Source: Haloarcula laminariae (lineage in GTDB: Archaea; Halobacteriota; Halobacteria; Halobacteriales; Haloarculaceae). Taken from it: DNA of 64,000 nucleotides. The stretch is from NCBI RefSeq assembly GCF_025457605.1, contig NZ_JAMZFY010000002.1:434001-498000 (forward strand), in the 5' to 3' direction. Below the pieces are notes generated by a model. That model worked only from the letters and a program-made list of their open reading frames with translations. It did not search any database and was not told the origin of the DNA. Both the position numbers and the translations under genes were made by a program. This document shows, one piece after another, positions 6,462 to 19,095 of this stretch. Positions within the stretch are counted from its first letter, which is position 1. Every line of letters begins with the position of its first letter.

Positions 6462-6893
6462 TCAGACCACCTCCGCCGTCGCGGCGACGCCCGGTCCGGT
6501 GACGATTTTCACCTGGCTCGGCTGGGGCGTCGTCGTGGTGTTGATAGCCAGCGTCTCCCGCGGGAGCCAGAGGTCCGTCTCGGTATCCCCATCGACGGCC
6601 GTGCGATACCCCGTCTGGTAGCTGTTGTCCGCGAGGACGTCGACGTCGCTGACCGACAGCTCCGTGGCGCCGGTGTTCTCGACGGTGACGTTGAGGTAGT
6701 CGGACGCGGTGTTGTAGTTCACAGTGGTGATCTCTATTTCGGTGTTGGTCCGTTCGAGCTGCCGGTCCGACTGGGTCTCGCGGGCGTCGTTGACCATCTC
6801 GGTGCTGTTTGCCGCCGCCGAGTAGAACATCCCGAAGCCGATGAAGGCTGCCACGAAGATGAGCGCCGCCGAGCCGCTAACGCTGAATCCCAT
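6462..6893 (-). CDS. flaF: Archaellum stator protein FlaF/ArlF
   Basis: FlaF binds the S-layer and holds the rotating motor in the envelope. I place the start at ATG 6893 (MGFSVSGS), the usual N-terminus of haloarchaeal FlaF, rather than a GTG nine bases upstream. The 143-residue product has an N-terminal helix (about residues 6-27) followed by a beta-sandwich-like ectodomain. The start lies 17 bases inside the end of flaCE, so the two are coupled. It ends one base before flaG. Confidence 0.9.
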   Translation of the reverse strand: MGFSVSGSAALIFVAAFIGFGMFYSAAANSTEMVNDARETQSDRQLERTNTEIEITTVNYNTASDYLNVTVENTGATELSVSDVDVLADNSYQTGYRTAVDGDTETDLWLPRETLAINTTTTPQPSQVKIVTGPGVAATAEVV

Positions 6894-8457
6894 CCGAGCC
6901 ACCTCCCACGAGCTTCGAGAGCGCGACGGCCTCGGCGCCGCTGTCCTCGTCGAGTTGCGAGATGTAGCGCAGACTCTCGGTGTGGTGGTCGATGGTGAGA
7001 CCGTCGCCGGCGTCGGCGACGTCGTCGAAGCCCCGCAGGTAGTCCGCGAGGTCGTCGGCCACGTCGGCGTCTATCCAGCCGATGGTCTCGTAGTAGTCGA
7101 TGGCACGGGACGCCTCGCGGTAGCCGGCCTGGCTCACCAGGAACTCCAGCCACTCGATGATTATCAGGTCCGCCGCGAAACCCTCCGGCATCGTCGCCAG
7201 GTAGGGCTTGCCGTCGTCGCTGTCCGCGGTCGGCTCGGCCGTCTTGTCGGCCGTCGGTTCGGGTTCCGGTTCCGGTTCCGGTTCGGTTTCGACGGCCGGT
7301 TCGGGTTCCGGCTCGGGCTCCGGTTCGGCTTCGACAGTCGGCTCCGGTTCCGGCTCGGGCTCGGCCATCCCGCCCGCTTCGTCTCCCTCCTCATCGATGA
7401 CCTCGTCGAAGAGGTCGTCGTCTTCGAGACCGCTCTCGCCGTCGTCGAACCCGTCGCCGTCGAGCATCTCGTCGCTGTCGTCAAGCATCTCGTCGTCATC
7501 GAGCATTTCGTCGCCGTCGTCGAGCATCTCGTCTTCCTCGCCTTCGGCCCACTCGGCGTCGCCCGACTCGTACTCGTCTTTCAGTTCCGCGAACGACTTG
7601 CCGCCGTCTGAGTCGTCGTCGCTGTTCCCGTCGTCCGTGTCGAGCCCGTCGTCCATACTCATGTCGTCTTCCTCCTCGAACTCCTCGTCGAACTCGCCGC
7701 CGTCGTCCTCGAACCCGTCGTCGAGGTCGTCGTCGAACATATCGTCGCCGTCGTCCATGGACATCTCGTCGTCCATCGCCATTCCGTCGTCCTCGACGAG
7801 GTCCTCGTCGAAGAACCCCTCGGCGTCGGCTGAGGCGACGTCGTCGTCGATGTCCTCGCCCTCGTCGTCGCCGCCGTCGTCGTCGAAGAGGCCGAAAGAG
7901 CCATCGCCCATGCCGCCACCGCCGCCGCCCATCCCGGCGTCGACGTCGTCGGCGAAGGGGTTCACGCCGCGGGTGACCATCTCGTAGATGTCCAGCAGCT
8001 TCCGGACGTTCTCCTGTACCTCGTCGACGGACTCGGAGATGGATTCGTTCTCCGTTCGGACGGTGTTGACCGTCGAGGAGAGGCTTCCGACCTCGTTTTC
8101 CAGCTCGTCGATTCGGTGTTCCAGCTCGTCGGTGTCGGGGCCGGTGGCGTCCTCCATGTCGCCGAACTCGTCGTCGCCGAAGCCGCCCATGTCGTCGCCG
8201 TCGTCGTCCAGCCCGCCGAGCCCGCCGAGGTCGTCGCCGCCACCGCCGCCGTCGTCGCCCATCAGCCCGCCGCCGCCCATATCGTCACTGCCGCTGTCGT
8301 CCTCGTCGCTCTCGTCGTCCGACATGATCGAGTCGAACATGTTCTTGATGCTCATCCCGACCAGGCCCCCGGACAGCAACACGACGAGCGCTGGGACCAG
8401 CGCGGCCACGTCCGGAGCGAGTGCCTGTAACGTCGGCACGAGAGCGAAACTACTCAT
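6877..8457 (-). CDS. flaCE: Archaellum motor scaffold fusion FlaC/D/E
   Basis: The FlaC/D/E proteins form a cytoplasmic collar that receives the CheY signal through CheF. This 526-residue protein has an N-terminal hydrophobic stretch (about 10-35), an acidic Gly/Asp/Met-rich linker, a coiled-coil FlaC-type segment near residues 115-165, a very long Asp/Glu linker, and a C-terminal FlaD/E-type domain from about residue 415. I see no separate flaD in the window. It heads the archaellum operon, preceded by an AT-rich promoter region. The huge acidic linker is encoded by low-complexity DNA. Confidence 0.92.
   Translation of the reverse strand: MSSFALVPTLQALAPDVAALVPALVVLLSGGLVGMSIKNMFDSIMSDDESDEDDSGSDDMGGGGLMGDDGGGGGDDLGGLGGLDDDGDDMGGFGDDEFGDMEDATGPDTDELEHRIDELENEVGSLSSTVNTVRTENESISESVDEVQENVRKLLDIYEMVTRGVNPFADDVDAGMGGGGGGMGDGSFGLFDDDGGDDEGEDIDDDVASADAEGFFDEDLVEDDGMAMDDEMSMDDGDDMFDDDLDDGFEDDGGEFDEEFEEEDDMSMDDGLDTDDGNSDDDSDGGKSFAELKDEYESGDAEWAEGEEDEMLDDGDEMLDDDEMLDDSDEMLDGDGFDDGESGLEDDDLFDEVIDEEGDEAGGMAEPEPEPEPTVEAEPEPEPEPEPAVETEPEPEPEPEPTADKTAEPTADSDDGKPYLATMPEGFAADLIIIEWLEFLVSQAGYREASRAIDYYETIGWIDADVADDLADYLRGFDDVADAGDGLTIDHHTESLRYISQLDEDSGAEAVALSKLVGGGSDGIQR
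7256..7366. repeat. Glu-Pro coding microsatellite inside flaCE
   Basis: About 110 bases made of GGTTCC/GGCTCG-type hexamers encode alternating Glu-Pro blocks broken by TVEA and AVET. Three blocks of similar length are seen, so the tract probably grew by slippage or unequal exchange. A shorter Glu-Pro run occurs in the protein at 13399-13956. Confidence 0.75.
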
Positions 8458-8701
8458 CGTTTAGAATGATTCCCGCAGATACCCTTGAATATTCCGTCTA
8501 GCTTATCATGGCTGATAACAAAGAGGCTATTTGAAATCAGAAAAGTATTAAATGAAGTCTTTTCGCACCGCATCCCCGGATTCGGCCACCGTTTCATCTG
8601 GAGATGTAGCGATAGCGGGTCTGAACGCCGCGCTCCCGACAGACACGTGACTGCCGCCCGTCTGACGCCGTACGGCGCGTGGCCAGTTTCAACAACGGAA
8701 A
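8458..8701 (-). promoter_or_regulatory. Promoter region of the archaellum operon
   Basis: This 244-bp gap is AT-rich near flaCE. A perfect inverted repeat TTATCA-TGGC-TGATAA lies at 8503-8518. Read on the minus strand it gives TTATCAG followed five bases later by ATAA, resembling the archaellin promoters. A TATA-like GAATATTC lies at 8487-8494, about 30 bases before the ATG, which would suit a leaderless or short-leader transcript. A second AT-rich box (TTTAATAC on the minus strand) is near 8550. The cheD end of the gap shows nothing clear. Confidence 0.55.
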
Positions 8702-10440: not shown

Positions 10441-10800
10441 CTATGAGGGGACGACGTCCTCGATTGCCTCCATCACGCTGGGTTTCTGGAAGGGTTTGGT
10501 GATGTAGCCGTCGGCGCCGGCCTTGACGGCCTCTTTCATCTTCTCCTCCTGGCCCACGCTGGTACACATGATGACGTTGGCGTTCGGGTTCGAGGACTTG
10601 ATTTCGCTGGTCGCCTCGATACCGTCCCGGATGGGCATCACGATGTCCATCATCACAAGGTCCGGCGTTTCCTCCTTGTACACCTCGACCGCCTCGACAC
10701 CGTTCTCGACCTCACCGACGATGGTGTGGTCCTCCTCTAGAATCTCCCGCAGGAGGTTCCGCATGAACTCCGAGTCGTCGGCAATTAGCACGTCTGGCAT
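10441..10800 (-). CDS. cheY: Chemotaxis response regulator CheY
   Basis: CheY carries the signal from CheA to the archaellum motor, in archaea through CheF. The 119-residue receiver domain has the acidic pair Asp 8/Asp 9, phospho-acceptor Asp 52, Thr 80 and Lys 102. I start at ATG 10800 (MPDVLIADD). The open frame upstream is Arg-rich and not protein-like. A TATA-like GATAATTT lies about 40 bases upstream, so this is probably the promoter for cheY-cheC-cheD. Confidence 0.96.
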   Translation of the reverse strand: MPDVLIADDSEFMRNLLREILEEDHTIVGEVENGVEAVEVYKEETPDLVMMDIVMPIRDGIEATSEIKSSNPNANVIMCTSVGQEEKMKEAVKAGADGYITKPFQKPSVMEAIEDVVPS

Positions 10801-10952
10801 GCCCGCTACTACCGTGATGACTGGGATAAATGTGACCCGTAAATTATCGCGTGTGATACCACCGACTGCGAGCGATTGAGTCGAGCTAGCTCGGCTGTCG
10901 CGTCGGGTGCTATCGACCACCGCGCCATCGCTCACGCGAGTCCGCGTTCCTC

Positions 10953-12893
10953 TCACAGCGCCGGGACGTGGTCGGCCAGGACACGGACCACGTCGAAGGC
11001 GTAGCTGCCGTACCGGAAGTAGACCAGCCCCGAAAGCAGGAGATACCCGGTCGTGAAGCCGGCCGGTAGCGCGACGGCGACCGCGACGAGGCGGTCGGGG
11101 ACCCGGTCCGAGACGGTCCAGCCGGTGACGGCGGCCCCGCAGACGGCCGCGGCCGCCAGATTCCAGAGGGCGTTGTACTGGACCGCCTCGCCGACTGCCA
11201 GCCCCAGCCCGCCGACGCCGCCCAGTAGGACGGCCACCGCGAGCGCGAGGCTGGCGAGATACGACCCGACGGCCCACCGGGCGTCCGATAGCGCGGCGCG
11301 GACGGCCGGCACGCGCCAGACGCCGTACGCGCCGAGCGCGATGACCGGATGGAGATACCGGACCGTGAGCGTACTGAAAAGCGGGAGTCGGGGGAGGTAG
11401 ACGACGGTCAGGACCGCGACCAGCGCGACCACGAGCAGGTCGGTCTGGCGAACCGGCCGCCAGTCGCGCGGATTCCGTGGCGGCAGGGTCCGGTCGGCCG
11501 CGGCCCGGAGCCGGCGCCCCGCCAGCACCGGGAGCGCCGCCAGCGCCCCCAGCAGGGGCGTCGCTTCGAGTACCGTGAGGTCGATGGCCTCGAAGTTGTT
11601 GGTCCCGTAGTTGACGCCCGGAATCGTCCCGCTCCGGACGAACGTGTGCCAGAGTCGGTCGGGCTGTGTGAGCGCCGCGAGCCCGCCAACGACAGCCCTT
11701 CCGGCGAACGCCGAGACCGTGTCGGTGCCGTCGCGGATGGTGTCGAGCAGCGACGGGGGTGTCGAACCGTCACCGCCGATACCGGTCGCCGTGGCCCCGG
11801 GCGTTGCGGTGGCCCCGCCCTCGGCAGTGGTGCTGTTCGGCATGGGGGTCCCGTTCCCGGACGGTGTCTCACCCGCCGCCGGCGCGAACTCCGCGTCGGG
11901 ACCGACGCTGGGGAGCAACCGCGGCGGCTGGGCCGGGTTCCCGCTGATGGCGTAGTTCGTCGCCAGCATCGGCGTCGACGCGACCAGAAGGACGAGACCA
12001 AGGACGGCCAGCGTCCGAGCGCTCCGGTCCCGCGCCGTCAGCAGGTCGACGGCCCCGAGGACCCCCACGACGAACAGCGCCTCGAACGCGTGTATCCAGG
12101 TGATGTAGCCGGCCAGCGCGTAGGCGCCGGCACGTGCCCTGAGGGCCGCGTCCCCTTCGCGGGCTCGACTCACCGCGAAGGCATACACCACGCCGACCAC
12201 CAGCGCGACCACGAGCGTGTGACGCTTGGGCAGTGTCGCCCAGAACCCGACCGGCGTCGCCACGCCCAGCGTGGCCCCGGCGGCCAGCCCCGCCCGGCGC
12301 CCGTGGAAACGGGCAACGAGGCGATACAGCACCAGCCCGGCCGTCGCCGCCGCCAGTACCGTCGAGAGCTGGAGCGCCACGAGGGCGAGCCGGTCGGTCG
12401 GGAGGTCGGTCGCCGTCAGCACGCTGGCGACGAACAACGCCATGACGAGGAGCGAGCCCGCGGCGCGGGTCCGGCCCCGGTCGAACCGGTCGAACTCGGC
12501 TACCTGTGTCACGAGAACCAGCCCGAGACCGGCCCAGAGGCCGGCGAGTAACAGCCGCGGCGCCACGACTGCCGCCCCGGCTTCCAGCGCCCAGACCAGC
12601 GGCACCGCCAGCGCGAGCATCCCGTAGTTCCGGCCGTAGGCCCGCCCCTGGTACTCGTACAGTCCCGGCTGGGAGCCAAACGTCAGCGAGTAGCGCAGCT
12701 CGGTCACGTGGAGCTGCCCGTCCGCGAGCGCGACGAGCGTGTTGGCCATCGCGTAGGTGTCCTGGATGAAGAAGCCGACCCGCCAGGTCAGCCCGAACCA
12801 GCAGACCAGCCCGAGCCACAGCACCAGTCCGCGCCGGTCGCCGAAGCACCACCGACCGGCGGCGACCAGCCGGTCCCGGGGAGCGCCGTTCAC
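10953..12893 (-). CDS. Polytopic membrane protein, GT-C glycosyltransferase-like
   Basis: This 646-residue protein has around a dozen hydrophobic helices and an external Ser/Thr/Gly-rich loop near residues 350-400. The first external loop after helix 1 carries an Asp (FIQDTY), the place where GT-C glycosyltransferases keep a catalytic acid, so a membrane sugar transferase is possible but not shown. Its start overlaps the stop of the preceding gene (12890-13357) by four bases. Location inside the archaellum/che island suggests a motility or surface link, though the archaellins here lack N-glycosylation sequons. Function unknown. Confidence 0.65.
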   Translation of the reverse strand: MNGAPRDRLVAAGRWCFGDRRGLVLWLGLVCWFGLTWRVGFFIQDTYAMANTLVALADGQLHVTELRYSLTFGSQPGLYEYQGRAYGRNYGMLALAVPLVWALEAGAAVVAPRLLLAGLWAGLGLVLVTQVAEFDRFDRGRTRAAGSLLVMALFVASVLTATDLPTDRLALVALQLSTVLAAATAGLVLYRLVARFHGRRAGLAAGATLGVATPVGFWATLPKRHTLVVALVVGVVYAFAVSRAREGDAALRARAGAYALAGYITWIHAFEALFVVGVLGAVDLLTARDRSARTLAVLGLVLLVASTPMLATNYAISGNPAQPPRLLPSVGPDAEFAPAAGETPSGNGTPMPNSTTAEGGATATPGATATGIGGDGSTPPSLLDTIRDGTDTVSAFAGRAVVGGLAALTQPDRLWHTFVRSGTIPGVNYGTNNFEAIDLTVLEATPLLGALAALPVLAGRRLRAAADRTLPPRNPRDWRPVRQTDLLVVALVAVLTVVYLPRLPLFSTLTVRYLHPVIALGAYGVWRVPAVRAALSDARWAVGSYLASLALAVAVLLGGVGGLGLAVGEAVQYNALWNLAAAAVCGAAVTGWTVSDRVPDRLVAVAVALPAGFTTGYLLLSGLVYFRYGSYAFDVVRVLADHVPAL

Positions 12894-13357
12894 CGTCTGG
12901 CCCCCACGGTCATCGTCGTTCGGGCCACTGTCCGGTCGGTCGTGAAGCTCTGGATGCGGACCGAGAGCACGGCGTCGTAAGTACCGTCGGCCCGACCCGG
13001 CGGTATCGCCCGGTCGTCGGGCGCGATTCGGTACGTGCCCGGCCCGGTGACAACCTCCCGTTCGACAAGCTGGAGGTCCAGTCCCGGGACCGAGACGATA
13101 TAGAGCAGTTGCGGCCGGCCGGTCACGCCGTCGACATCGACCGCGGCCGTCGGTACGCGGAGGTAGGTGACGTTAGTCCCGAATCGGCCGGGCGTCAACG
13201 TGAGCCCAGCGCGGTCGACGCCGACCTCGGTCACGGTCGCGTTCCCGTCGCCGAACGTCGACGGCGAGGCGGTGGTCACGTCGAGCCCGGTCAGCGGCCC
13301 GGTGCCCACGAGGACGAAGGCGACGAAGAGGCCGACGACGGTCACCCAGCGGTCCAT
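12890..13357 (-). CDS. Membrane-anchored or exported beta-rich protein, unknown
   Basis: This 155-residue protein begins with a single hydrophobic helix (about residues 4-24) and then a beta-strand-rich, Thr/Val-rich domain with repeated 'TVxRTTMTV'-like strands. It is probably anchored by the helix with the domain outside the cell. I start at ATG 13357 (MDRWVTVVG) because the open frame above it is out-of-frame noise from the next gene. It is coupled (ATGA) to the polytopic protein downstream, so the two likely work together. I do not recognise a family. Confidence 0.7.
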   Translation of the reverse strand: MDRWVTVVGLFVAFVLVGTGPLTGLDVTTASPSTFGDGNATVTEVGVDRAGLTLTPGRFGTNVTYLRVPTAAVDVDGVTGRPQLLYIVSVPGLDLQLVEREVVTGPGTYRIAPDDRAIPPGRADGTYDAVLSVRIQSFTTDRTVARTTMTVGARR

Positions 13358-13398
13358 CGGGTTACCAACGGCTGCCCCGTGGCTTAAACCCCTCGCCG

Positions 13399-14032: not shown

Positions 14033-14671
14033 TTAGAGGCCGACTGCGGAGTCCCCGGAGAGCGTCTGGGGAACCACGAGCCGGACTTCGGTAGTGCCGC
14101 CGGACTGGGTGTTGATTCTGACCGTTGCCGTATCGCCCTCGCCGAAGCCGTCAGTGACACCGCTAGGACTGGTATCAATGACTATCTGTGCGCGGTCCGC
14201 GGGGTCGTTTAGTACGACACCATCGGTGGACAGTGAGTCTCCACCCTGATCCTGGACCTCAACCACACCGAACTGGGTGCCATCCAGAGTCAAGGCGCTC
14301 GTATCGCCAGAGTCGAATTGATCTTGGTACGTAAGATCACTTGAGCCGCTGGAGTGGACAAACTGGAGCGTCGTTGACGACAGGTCGATGTTGTTCGCAC
14401 CGGGGGCCTTTTTGACCGTGATAACGGCACGGTCAACTTCGCTGTTGGCTGCATCGATATTCTCTCCGATAACGCTCACAACGTCGAGCCGGTTGGTCAC
14501 TTGGTCGCTACTCTGCTGTCCGGTCTCCTCGGCACCGCTCTGGAGGAACCCGGCCGTGTTGATTAGGACGCCCGCAGCGATAGCCGCCACCAGCACCATC
14601 GCGATGAACACGATGAGCGTGCCGATACCGACCTGCCCGCGGTCGTCGTCTCGTTTGAATGTTTCGAGCAT
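14033..14671 (-). CDS. flaB: Archaellin (archaellum filament subunit) 1
   Basis: This 212-residue prearchaellin has a class III signal peptide: a short charged leader ending DDDR, then GQVGIGTLIVF, with cleavage expected after Arg 11. The long hydrophobic helix that packs the filament core follows, then a beta-rich outer domain. I start at ATG 14671 (MLETFKRD), which matches copy 2. No N-X-S/T glycosylation sequon is present. It is monocistronic, with its own promoter and terminator. Confidence 0.95.
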   Translation of the reverse strand: MLETFKRDDDRGQVGIGTLIVFIAMVLVAAIAAGVLINTAGFLQSGAEETGQQSSDQVTNRLDVVSVIGENIDAANSEVDRAVITVKKAPGANNIDLSSTTLQFVHSSGSSDLTYQDQFDSGDTSALTLDGTQFGVVEVQDQGGDSLSTDGVVLNDPADRAQIVIDTSPSGVTDGFGEGDTATVRINTQSGGTTEVRLVVPQTLSGDSAVGL

Positions 14672-14719
14672 GGATATTCCAGGTCTGTCTGACCCTAGTC
14701 GAAGCTTGCTTTCACCAGT

Positions 14720-14754
14720 AATAATACCTCCCCTCAAAATATCTCTACTGATAA
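14720..14754 (-). promoter_or_regulatory. Archaellin 1 promoter with TTATCAG element
   Basis: Read on the minus strand: TTATCAG (14754-14748), five bases, ATATTTTG (14742-14735), eight G/A-rich bases, then TATTATTAC (from 14726), the likely TATA box about 50 bases before the ATG. The same order and exact spacing recur at archaellin 2 and at the 15770-16045 gene. Confidence 0.65.
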
Positions 14755-14911
14755 TACATGTTTGAGTGGCTCTACAGCAGTGTGAGTGATTACGCTTCAG
14801 TTGACGACCAACAGACATCTGATCGCGTAGACGACGCGAACAGTAGCCACGCCGTCATTTCCATAGCTGGTACTCATCGGTAATCGACACAGAAAAGAAG
14901 GAGGCGCAGGC

Positions 14912-15556
14912 TTAGAGGCCGACTGCGGAGTCCCCGGAGAGCGTCTGGGGAACCACGAGCCGGACTTCGGTAGTGCCGCCGGACTGGGTATTGATTTTGA
15001 CTGTTGCCGTATCGCCCTCGCCGAAGCCGTCAGTGACGCCAGTGTCGGGGCTGGTATCAATGACTATCTGTGCGCGGTCCGCGGGGTCGTTTAGTACGAC
15101 ACCATCGGTGGATAGTGAATCTCCGCCCTCGTCCTGGACCTCTGCCACACCGAAGTTAACGTCGTCGCCCGGATCCGCACCGCTCGCATCAGTCGCAGAG
15201 AAGTCACCGTCGTAGGTGAGATCGCTTGAGCCGCTGGAGTGGACAAACTGGAGCGTCGTTGACGACAGGTCGATGTTGTTCGCACCGGGGGCCTTTTTGA
15301 CCGTGATAACGGCACGGTCAACTTCGCTGTTGGCTGCATCGATATTCTCTCCGATAACGCTCACAACGTCGAGCCGGTTGGTCACTTGGTCGCTACTCTG
15401 CTGTCCGGTCTCCTCGGCACCGCTCTGGAGGAACCCGGCCGTGTTGATCAGGACGCCCGCAGCGATAGCCGCCACCAGCACCATCGCGATGAACACGATA
15501 AGCGTGCCGATACCGACCTGCCCGCGGTCGTCGTCTCGTTTGAATGTTTCGAGCAT
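14912..15556 (-). CDS. flaA: Archaellin (archaellum filament subunit) 2
   Basis: This 214-residue prearchaellin is identical to copy 1 over about the first 115 residues, including the DDDR/GQVGIG cleavage site. It differs in residues about 116-136, then returns to near identity with a few changes such as Lys for Arg near the end. Like copy 1 it has no N-X-S/T sequon. It has its own copy of the promoter upstream and a T-rich terminator downstream. The two may form one mixed filament or be used under different conditions. The gene symbol is arbitrary. Confidence 0.95.
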   Translation of the reverse strand: MLETFKRDDDRGQVGIGTLIVFIAMVLVAAIAAGVLINTAGFLQSGAEETGQQSSDQVTNRLDVVSVIGENIDAANSEVDRAVITVKKAPGANNIDLSSTTLQFVHSSGSSDLTYDGDFSATDASGADPGDDVNFGVAEVQDEGGDSLSTDGVVLNDPADRAQIVIDTSPDTGVTDGFGEGDTATVKINTQSGGTTEVRLVVPQTLSGDSAVGL

Positions 15557-15602
15557 GGATATTCCAGGTCTGTCTGACCCTAGTGGAAGCTTGCTTTCAC
15601 CA

Positions 15603-15639
15603 GTAATAATACCTCTCCCCAAAATATACACTCTGATAA
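15603..15639 (-). promoter_or_regulatory. Archaellin 2 promoter with TTATCAG element
   Basis: The minus strand reads TTATCAG (15639-15633), five bases (AGTGT, unlike copy 1), ATATTTTG (15627-15620), eight bases, then TATTATTAC (15611-15603). Upstream of TTATCAG the two archaellin promoters lose similarity, so the duplication border falls close to this element. Confidence 0.65.
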
Positions 15640-15769
15640 CGGGCCTTAGAGCCCTACTATGGCTAATATTCAGTAGTTTGGGGTGTGTCGAACTAGCCAC
15701 TACAACGGGAATCGGACTGACAGCATCGGACGCGTCAAAAGCCGGTCGGGCAGTGTAAGCCGGAGTCGT

Positions 15770-16045
15770 TCACTCGTAGGTCACGAGGCTGTACATCACG
15801 AACAGGAAGCCGAACGTCGTCAATCCGCTGTTGACCAGCAGGAGCGACCGCACGCCTTCGAAGTCGTTGATAAAGGCGCTGATCATCGTCGCAGCGGCAC
15901 CCGCGACGGCAAGCGAGAAGCCGACGGACAGGTGTAGCATCGCCTGCCGGGAGGTTTGGACGTACGCCCGCACTGCCATCCCGACCATGGTGAGTCCAGC
16001 GACGACGAACACGAGCGTCGAGATGGCATAGAGGAGTTCTATCAT
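15770..16045 (-). CDS. Small three-helix membrane protein (DUF7521-like)
   Basis: This 91-residue protein is made of three hydrophobic segments (about residues 2-24, 36-54 and 62-86) with short polar turns. It resembles a haloarchaeal family I remember as DUF7521, often encoded beside a winged-helix regulator, as here. I choose ATG 16045 over a GTG at 16087 because a promoter-like block lies between the two. Its promoter has the same TTATCAG architecture as the archaellin genes, so it is probably expressed with them. Function unknown; a membrane partner or sensor for the regulator is an inference. Confidence 0.75.
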   Translation of the reverse strand: MIELLYAISTLVFVVAGLTMVGMAVRAYVQTSRQAMLHLSVGFSLAVAGAAATMISAFINDFEGVRSLLLVNSGLTTFGFLFVMYSLVTYE

Positions 16046-16074
16046 CGGCACTGAGAGTAGGTATGCGAACCCCC

Positions 16075-16111
16075 GTATTAAATCCACGCTCGTAAATATT
16101 TCAACTGATAA
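16075..16111 (-). promoter_or_regulatory. TTATCAG-type promoter of the small membrane protein gene
   Basis: The minus strand reads TTATCAG (16111-16105), five bases (TTGAA), ATATTT (16099-16094), then after a further ten bases ATTTAATAC (16083-16075). The spacing from TTATCAG to the TATA-like box equals that at both archaellin promoters, although the sequence between is unrelated. That argues for function rather than shared ancestry. Confidence 0.6.
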
Positions 16112-16138: not shown

Positions 16139-16474
16139 CTATCTGTCCGAGAGCGTTCGCCAGGCCTCGTCGAGCTTGTTCGTGACTTCGGAGCGCTCCT
16201 CGACGTGGATGGACAGCCCCTCGTCGAAATCGACCCGGACCTCGTCGACGTTGCGCCGGTAGACCTTGATGCGTCGGCGGTCATCGGAGAGAATGTTGTC
16301 GTGGAGTTCGAGCAGGTCGTGTTCGGTGAGTTCGTCGATTCGCCGATAGCATGTCGCGATTGGGATCTCGAGTTCGTCGCTCAGGTCCTGTGCCGAGATG
16401 GGTTCATCGGTCGCATCGAGTATCTCAGCGCTGTATTTGTTTCCCAGCGTCTGGAGAAGATCCGCTGATGCCAT
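16139..16474 (-). CDS. Winged-helix transcriptional regulator, possible archaellum regulator
   Basis: This 111-residue protein has a winged-helix fold of the ArsR/MarR kind: a first helix (LLQTLGNKYSAEIL), a helix-turn-helix with recognition helix near IPIATCYRRIDEL, and a wing with LSDDRRRIKVYRR. The C-terminal 25 residues look helical, perhaps for dimerisation. I start at ATG 16474 rather than a TTG nine bases upstream. It lies between archaellin and che genes, beside the small membrane protein. The euryarchaeal archaellum activator EarA is also a winged-helix protein encoded near fla genes, so an EarA-like role is plausible but unproven. Confidence 0.8.
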   Translation of the reverse strand: MASADLLQTLGNKYSAEILDATDEPISAQDLSDELEIPIATCYRRIDELTEHDLLELHDNILSDDRRRIKVYRRNVDEVRVDFDEGLSIHVEERSEVTNKLDEAWRTLSDR

Positions 16475-16476
16475 CG

Positions 16477-16539
16477 TTATCAAATCATAAATTCAGACTT
16501 TAATAAAGCTATCGGCAATGATACTGGCCGATTCGGCCG
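16477..16539 (-). promoter_or_regulatory. Promoter and palindrome of the winged-helix regulator gene
   Basis: A TATA-like TTTATTAAAG lies on the minus strand near 16500-16510, about 30 bases before the ATG, which fits a leaderless mRNA. Upstream at 16527-16539 is the inverted repeat GGCCGA-T-TCGGCC, a candidate activator or autoregulatory site. A TTATCA on the plus strand (16477-16482) abuts the start codon and could be a half-site for autorepression. Confidence 0.5.
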
Positions 16540-16618: not shown

Positions 16619-17344
16619 TCAGAGGGGGGACTCCTCTTCGCTCATCATGGAGAACGCACTGGCGTTCTGGTGGACCTTGATACCACCCCAGTCTATCTCC
16701 ATCGGGTAGATGTCCGTCTCGATGTTCTGCTTGCGCATCTTGGCGACCCAGACGTACCGGCTGACGCCGGAGTCGGTCGGCGTCTGGATGAGATAGATGT
16801 TCCCGTCGGTGAGGTAGTTCTCCAGGCCGATTTCGGTGTCGGGGAAGACCGCGCCCTGCTCGTTGGTCAGCAGCGTCGTCAGCCCGTTGGCCTTGAGGAT
16901 GTCGGTGAGTTTCAGGAGGTAGGTGCGTTTCTCCTTCTCGTCGTCGAAGAAGAGCTGGAACATCGCCAGCGAGTCGAGTACGAGCCGGTCGTAGTCGTCG
17001 TCTTCGAGGTCTTCGAGCAGGATTTCCAGCGAGGAGGAGAAGTCGTTCTCACGCAGGAGGACCTGCTTGTCGTACACTTTGATATCGCCGCTGTCGACGT
17101 ATTCGGGCCACTTGTCGAAGCCGATCGACTCGGCCGCCTCCCGGATGTCTGCCTCGTTTTCCTCGAAGGAGAGGTAGATGCCCTTCTCGTCGAACATGTC
17201 GACGCCGTTGTAGATGTACTGCAGACAGAGAATCGATTTCCCGGCGCCGGGGTTCCCGCTAATCAGTGTCGTGGAGTCCTTCACGATGCCGCCGTTGAGG
17301 ATGTCGTCGAGGCCGTCGATGCCGGTTTTGGTTAGCTGTATCAT
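16619..17344 (-). CDS. KaiC/RAD55-like ATPase of the che locus
   Basis: This 241-residue protein is a single RecA-type ATPase domain related to KaiC and FlaH. Walker A is GNPGAGKS at residues 30-37 (Lys 36) and Walker B ends in LVLDS (Asp 124). Such haloarchaeal proteins are signal-transduction ATPases of unknown output. It lies 72 bases downstream of cheW on the same strand, so it may share a transcript. Its gene order next to cheW suggests a chemotaxis or taxis-tuning role; a clock-like role cannot be inferred from sequence. Confidence 0.85.
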   Translation of the reverse strand: MIQLTKTGIDGLDDILNGGIVKDSTTLISGNPGAGKSILCLQYIYNGVDMFDEKGIYLSFEENEADIREAAESIGFDKWPEYVDSGDIKVYDKQVLLRENDFSSSLEILLEDLEDDDYDRLVLDSLAMFQLFFDDEKEKRTYLLKLTDILKANGLTTLLTNEQGAVFPDTEIGLENYLTDGNIYLIQTPTDSGVSRYVWVAKMRKQNIETDIYPMEIDWGGIKVHQNASAFSMMSEEESPL

Positions 17345-17416: not shown

Positions 17417-17851
17417 CTACTGCGAGCTGTGGACGATAGCCGGGTCGACCCAGATGACGAACTCGTCGTCGCGTTTGACGACGCCGCGAATCGAGCCCGA
17501 ATCGTTGGCGGGGGACTGGTCTATCTGGTCGGGGGTCACCTGGACGACCTGATACACCTCGTCGACGACCCAGCCGGCCGCGCCCTGGTCCTGTACGATG
17601 TCCGGGTCGAAGACGATTATCCGCTGGCCCTCGCTGTCGTCGCGGATGCCGAAGACGGTCTTCGGGTCCACGATAGACGTCGTCCGGCCACGGAGGTCCA
17701 TCACGCCTTCGACGTGGGCCGGGGCGTTGGGGACCTGAGTCAGCTCCCCGACGTCGACGATTTCGGTCACGTAGCCGATGCTGACACAGTACGTCTCTTC
17801 GCCGAGTTTGAATTCGAGCACCTGGCCGGTTGTGGTAGACTGGGCTGACAT
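17417..17851 (-). CDS. cheW: Chemotaxis coupling protein CheW
   Basis: CheW links chemoreceptors to the CheA kinase. This 144-residue protein is a complete CheW domain: 'VLEFKLGEETYCVSIGYVTEIV' type opening, then 'VMDLRGRTTSIVDPKTVFG'. A minus-strand TATA-like TTTTATAC lies about 35-40 bases before the ATG at 17851. It is divergent from cheB, with about 170 bases between them carrying promoters for both directions. Confidence 0.95.
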   Translation of the reverse strand: MSAQSTTTGQVLEFKLGEETYCVSIGYVTEIVDVGELTQVPNAPAHVEGVMDLRGRTTSIVDPKTVFGIRDDSEGQRIIVFDPDIVQDQGAAGWVVDEVYQVVQVTPDQIDQSPANDSGSIRGVVKRDDEFVIWVDPAIVHSSQ

Positions 17852-17883: not shown

Positions 17884-17945
17884 GTATAAAAGGCTGTGTA
17901 CTGGGCTATCAACTTTGATTACGTGGGCGGAGTCTTTATTTTGGG
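17884..17945. promoter_or_regulatory. Divergent cheW/cheB promoter region
   Basis: A TATA-like box for cheW (GTATAAAAGG on the plus strand, 17884-17893) and one for cheB (TCTTTATTTT, 17932-17941) lie between the two genes. The cheB transcript would carry a leader of roughly 50-60 bases. No TTATCAG element is present here. Confidence 0.45.

Positions 17946-18021: not shown

Positions 18022-19094
<1,073 letters not shown>

Positions 19095-19095
<1 letters not shown>

Follow-up and report, generated by a model that had tools for sequence, protein, structure and literature searches.

The archaellum and chemotaxis promoters of Haloarcula laminariae carry a semi-palindromic box, TATCA-N5-GATA. We consider it very probable that this box is the operator of the adjacent CsmR ortholog, a winged-helix protein, and that the box-bearing promoters make up an archaellum/chemotaxis regulon. 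Before the 2026 CsmR report, there was no explanation of how haloarchaea control swimming; that report concerned one species and gave contradictory signs (no motility, more transcript). In Haloferax volcanii, CsmR (HVO_1209) is a 13-kDa winged-helix protein whose gene lies upstream of arlA1/arlA2 (Nussbaum et al., PLoS Genet, June 2026, PMC13286277). Our literature search found no second CsmR study.

The promoter box and its conservation

The original prediction held that three minus-strand promoters in the window (the whole 64-kb stretch of DNA that was analyzed) share the pattern TTATCAG-N5-ATATTT at an identical distance from a TATA-like box. Both parts were confirmed. TTATCAGNNNNNATATTT is present in exact form on the minus strand at positions 14737-14754, 15622-15639, and 16094-16111, against a mean of 0.03 copies expected in shuffles with up to two mismatches, and a TATA-like element starts 14 bp past the 14-bp core in all three. 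Genome-wide counts come from pattern searches with the reversed pattern as the control. The entire 3.69 Mb assembly has three exact copies of TTATCAG-N5-ATATTT, all at these window promoters, and the genes concerned are two archaellins (PF01917) and one DUF7521. At one mismatch, two further copies appear (control, 0), while a shorter strict form at one mismatch returns mostly background (19 vs 12 in the control).

TTATCAG-N5-ATATTT is the local form of the broader box TATCA-N5-GATA. The original motif definition was too narrow, as neither the G that follows TTATCA nor the terminal TTT is a general feature. The broader box is found at all archaellum/chemotaxis promoters of the window (arlCE, cheYCD, arlA1, arlA2, DUF7521, and cheW/cheBAR), and it is confined to the first genes of the arl/che transcription units. 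On the minus strand, box TATCAGTAGAGATA of archaellin gene 1 (14740-14753), which is kept in congeners, is followed by the TATA-like ATTATTAC (14718-14725), box TATCAGAGTGTATA of archaellin gene 2 (15625-15638) by a TATA-like element at 15603-15610, and box TATCAGTTGAAATA of DUF7521 (16097-16110) by the TATA TTTAATAC (16075-16082). The archaellins are encoded at 14912-15556 (the copy closer to csmR) and 14033-14671 (the second copy), and the DUF7521 gene (15770-16045) specifies a small membrane protein that starts with MIELLYAI; all three are minus-strand genes. A similar site had been noted at flaCE (arlCE; 8503-8518). The site was confirmed and is the best of the copies, the perfect box TATCAGCCATGATA (8504-8517, minus strand), located before a weak TATA (~8482-8489) and arlCE (6877-8457, minus strand), which heads the arl motor operon arlCE-F-G-H-I-J.

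Three promoter sites in the window had been overlooked, those of cheY, csmR (16510-16523; see below), and cheW/cheB. Box TATCACACGCGATA (10845-10858, minus strand) precedes the TATA TTTATCCC (10823-10830) of cheY-cheC-cheD, in which cheY (10441-10800, minus strand) comes first. Between the divergent cheW (17417-17851, minus strand) and cheB-cheA-cheR (cheB at 18022-19095, plus strand), there is a single palindromic box, TATCAACTTTGATT / AATCAAAGTTGATA (17907-17920), and TATA elements begin ~14-15 bp off on either side (17935-17942 and 17885-17892). Two proteins, a polytopic membrane protein of 646 aa and a small one, are encoded in the interval between the archaellins and cheY (10953-13384), where there is no CsmR box; these genes are found in some congeners and missing in others (L038, L039). 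They were rejected as targets along with KaiC and arlD/DUF7500, with 0 boxes at up to one mismatch.

The box was also searched for in combination with its 14-bp distance to TATA. At up to two mismatches, the window has seven such spaced boxes, all at promoters of the arl/che cluster, against 0 in 20 Markov simulations, and the whole genome has 25 sites against 6 in the reversed control. In 12 congeners, the count at up to one mismatch is 118 against 4. When the TATA spacing is left out, TATCANNNNNGATA gives 22 matches, and most of those outside the cluster have no TATA at the correct distance.

The suggestion that the shared parts are functional stands, but the archaellin pair does not count as independent support for it, since the two genes were recently duplicated together with their promoter. 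Because this duplication weakens the argument from within the window, conservation in 21 congeners was used as a replacement. Orthologous promoters were surveyed in 22 genus genomes (that of the window and the 21 others), with the box scored at up to one mismatch. It is present at 30/33 archaellin, 12/12 arlCE, 21/21 cheY, and 21/22 cheB promoters, and at all 22 promoters each of cheW, DUF7521, and csmR. The same search found it in 0-1 upstream regions each for arlD/DUF7500, arlF, arlG, arlH, arlI, cheA, cheC, cheD, and cheR, as well as for KaiC and a HEAT-repeat gene, and in 0-2.6% of shuffled upstream regions. The claim survived this comparison (22/22 for DUF7521 vs 0-1 for in-operon genes). 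These are kin genomes and the counts are not independent; as judged by information content, the box is constant, in contrast to N5, the spacer, and the flanking bases.

The box pattern extends to other Haloarculaceae genera and to Haloferax-type genomes. TATA starts 14 bp past the box at 96/123 arlA, 74/83 DUF7521, 66/69 cheB, 52/70 cheW, and 55/86 cheY promoters, counts that for some genes represent minimum values, because the automatic caller often picked other A/T-rich positions. In two congeners, the archaellin region is rearranged and has an archaellin-like gene on the opposite strand (L050, 9939-12339; L054, 9920-12460). An invertible archaellin segment is unsupported there, as the search for long inverted repeats turned up none.

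The regulator and its fold

Which protein recognizes the box? The winged-helix protein encoded next door (16142-16474, minus strand; 111 aa) had been named as the candidate binder. In Haloferax volcanii, ChIP-seq identified the CsmR motif TATCA(N4)TGATA, which is part of a ~34-bp element beside TATA and occurs in 50 of 65 peaks (PMC13286277). The spacing of the Haloarcula box is that of the published motif (TATCA, six bases, ATA), and 14+14+6 = 34 bp agrees with the published length; it is in their right half that the arlA2 and DUF7521 boxes of the window diverge from the ChIP consensus. Six loci have the published Haloferax gene order (csmR, arlA, arlA, KaiC antisense, arlCE). Their CsmR is 56-57% and their KaiC 66-68% identical to the window counterparts, and their cheY and archaellin promoters have the same box, mostly at 14 bp. 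On the grounds of synteny and similarity to these loci, we assign the window protein as the ortholog of CsmR. It is predicted to bind the box because Haloferax volcanii CsmR binds the same motif, and its candidacy has thus gained support. Likewise, the box at arl/che first genes across the genus argues for the motility regulon that was originally proposed. The KaiC-family ATPase gene (16619-17344, minus strand), a likely CirA ortholog without a CsmR box of its own, adjoins csmR, and conservation of the csmR-KaiC pair agrees with the expectation of a linked CirA.

CsmR has been classed as Lrp/AsnC (PMC13286277), a label that is not supported here. The best Pfam family for the window protein is HTH_20 (PF12840, E 1.1e-11), and Pfam detects no AsnC ligand domain in it. 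In a Foldseek search with the AlphaFold2 model (pLDDT 89), Pyrococcus Phr (2p4w, E 1.4e-5) ranks first among PDB entries, followed by PH1932 and SmtB/CzrA-type ArsR proteins; the best 50 PDB matches include no named Lrp/AsnC entry except the biofilm regulator AbfR2. The protein is a winged helix of the HTH_20 / ArsR-Phr type. It resembles the Phr/ArsR-type proteins (PF12840) in fold, but Phr is the longer protein, and CsmR is not known to be linked to metal or heat shock. Residues P38, I39, A40, T41, Y43, R44, and R45, which map to helix 39-51 of the winged-helix fold, show no variation across 20 CsmR sequences.

Haloarchaea have many TFB/TBP paralogs, and the box invariably sits just before TATA, with a constant distance between the two. 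A core promoter variant, i.e., an extended BRE/TATA or an alternative TFB/TBP element, could therefore mark motility promoters with no dedicated binder, and the TFB variant HVO_0226 is listed among possible layers (PMC13286277). However, the box is a semi-palindrome that keeps an equal distance both ways at the divergent cheW/cheB, it is 14 bp away from TATA rather than adjacent to it and at another distance at csmR, and it matches the ChIP-seq motif of CsmR in Haloferax (PMC13286277), so that this explanation is very unlikely. Slightly less probable again is that the box is bound not by the neighbor but by another CsmR/HTH_20 paralog elsewhere in the genome. There are nine CsmR-family matches with related helices, and cross-talk or sharing of sites is conceivable; yet this paralogous class shows ~27-39% identity, whereas the neighbor shows 50-97% conservation and keeps its synteny with the same promoters in different families, and it is the neighbor's Haloferax ortholog that binds the motif (PMC13286277). 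As for chance or duplication remnants, which the joint duplication of archaellins and promoter would favor, the comparative counts already refute them for practical purposes: conservation of seven promoter positions extends over 22 genomes and into other families, with varying spacer and N5, and the spaced box exceeds its control by 118 to 4. The adjacent CsmR ortholog is thus the preferred binder.

Probable autorepression, initiation, and DUF7521 as a possible partner

The csmR promoter is built differently from its targets. Its box TATCATTGCCGATA (16510-16523, minus strand) ends 2 bp before the strong TATA TTTATTAA (16500-16507), and since only 2 bp separate the two, the box covers the BRE. 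A degenerate second box, TTTATGATTTGATA (16478-16491, minus strand), ends ~3-4 nt ahead of the csmR start codon. GATA within 15 nt upstream of this start is found at 22/22 loci in the genus and 32/33 other family loci, but at 1/6 Haloferax-type loci. With one box over the BRE and a second against the start codon, CsmR would repress its own gene. As both are positions that a repressor would occupy, negative autoregulation of csmR is likely.

At the arl, che, and DUF7521 promoters, bound CsmR would abut the BRE from upstream, where activators recruit TFB. Archaeal activators act just upstream of the BRE, and a weak TATA is common at activator-dependent promoters (PMC5512572); the TATA elements of arlA and arlCE are of this weak kind (ATTATTAC and TTCAAGGG). 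Because bound CsmR would occupy the activator position beside the BRE, its most likely role is to set output at the initiation step. The sign of regulation at the motility promoters may be positive or negative. Deletion of csmR in Haloferax results in non-motile cells, yet arl/che transcripts rise, and the authors offered two readings, direct derepression and positive regulation (PMC13286277). At the transcript level, this rise is contrary to what would be expected of a simple EarA-like activator needed for arl transcription. The geometry, 14 bp from TATA at the targets and over the BRE at csmR, provides a testable rule for activation vs self-repression.

The third predicted target in the original set, DUF7521, leads to a broader pattern. 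All 10 PF24365 (DUF7521) genes of the genome are directly 3′ of a same-strand CsmR-family HTH gene, two of them in tandem behind a single HTH. Across the order, a CsmR-family HTH is present at 35/38 DUF7521 loci (10 of them from this genome, in a sample biased to the best-scoring family members) vs 1/46 control loci. Under a strict rule of same-strand adjacency, 32/38 loci pass, and a 4-bp overlap is frequent. At csmR itself, DUF7521 is present in nearly all archaellin-bearing Haloarculaceae loci; it is missing in seven family loci without an arl/che cluster and in all six Haloferax-type loci examined. No mention of DUF7521 was found in the papers searched. From its promoter, DUF7521 is a predicted CsmR target, and since DUF7521 genes generally adjoin CsmR-type regulators, it is perhaps also a membrane partner of CsmR.

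These observations raise a wider and more tentative possibility, to which we give rather less than even credence: haloarchaea may have a large class of HTH_20 regulators, each paired with a DUF7521 protein that controls it, e.g., by membrane tethering or envelope sensing. In this scenario, Haloarcula CsmR would drive its partner and repress itself, and the feedback would set the motility decision. If so, the sensing half was overlooked, since Haloferax, the model in which CsmR was discovered, has no DUF7521 at the csmR locus. For a large uncharacterized group of archaeal regulators, the pairing suggests that a sensor or partner has been missing from the picture.

Predicted wider regulon and comparison with known systems

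Spaced boxes outside the cluster recur before the same gene types in different congeners. The predicted distal targets are a third archaellin, a type IV pilin (Pilin_N), a HalX response regulator, a 7TM histidine kinase, and MCP (Htr) transducers. A third, distant archaellin with a spaced box was observed at loci L197, L260-L265, L287, L288, and L297 (G000:C2:24450).

In Halobacteria, csmR is stated to be accompanied by archaellins in every case (PMC13286277). Halolamina rubra and H. salifodinae run counter to this, as both keep the csmR-KaiC pair without any PF01917 match. Their spaced boxes number 1 and 3, and the archaellin-less, che-less genomes as a group have 0, 0, 1, and 3, with no sensible targets found among them. 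The near absence of spaced boxes in Halolamina indicates that the motility regulon was lost and the regulator retained. Several MAG loci without an archaellin-family match also keep csmR and KaiC (L166, L167). Two other MAGs (QS_5_68_33 and QS_4_66_20) have the chemotaxis cluster, csmR, DUF7521, and CsmR boxes, and archaellin is absent from the assembly; these MAGs may be incomplete, or chemotaxis may serve another output.

Among known archaellum regulators, EarA of Methanococcus maripaludis had been offered as the parallel. Both are winged-helix archaellum regulators (PMC13286277), and EarA also has its site just upstream of the fla BRE; it differs in using four 6-bp sites at one operon (PMC5512572). 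In the window, the box ends 14 bp before TATA, an EarA-like position. TACATA, an EarA-type hexamer, does not occur in the window. The parallel holds for promoter position and not for homology, as CsmR is reported to resemble EarA neither in sequence nor in structure (PMC13286277).

The closest system is the CsmR regulon of Haloferax volcanii. In both genera, a winged-helix protein of ~13 kDa is encoded beside the archaellins, the motif TATCA(N4)TGATA is next to TATA (PMC13286277), the targets are arlA1/A2, arlCE and following genes, cheBAR, and cheYCD, and a KaiC-type CirA is near. The Haloarcula arrangement differs in that DUF7521 directly follows csmR and has a box, whereas the six Haloferax-type loci examined have no DUF7521 there, and in that csmR has boxes of its own, of which the start-codon box is present in one of six Haloferax-type loci. 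Moreover, KaiC is upstream of csmR in Haloarcula and antisense behind arlA2 in Haloferax, and the Haloarcula distal targets include the third archaellin and the pilin. The principle of CsmR control is thus known already from the sister genus (PMC13286277), and what the present comparison adds is the family-wide rule, a probable autoregulation of csmR, the predicted distal targets, and the pairing with DUF7521.
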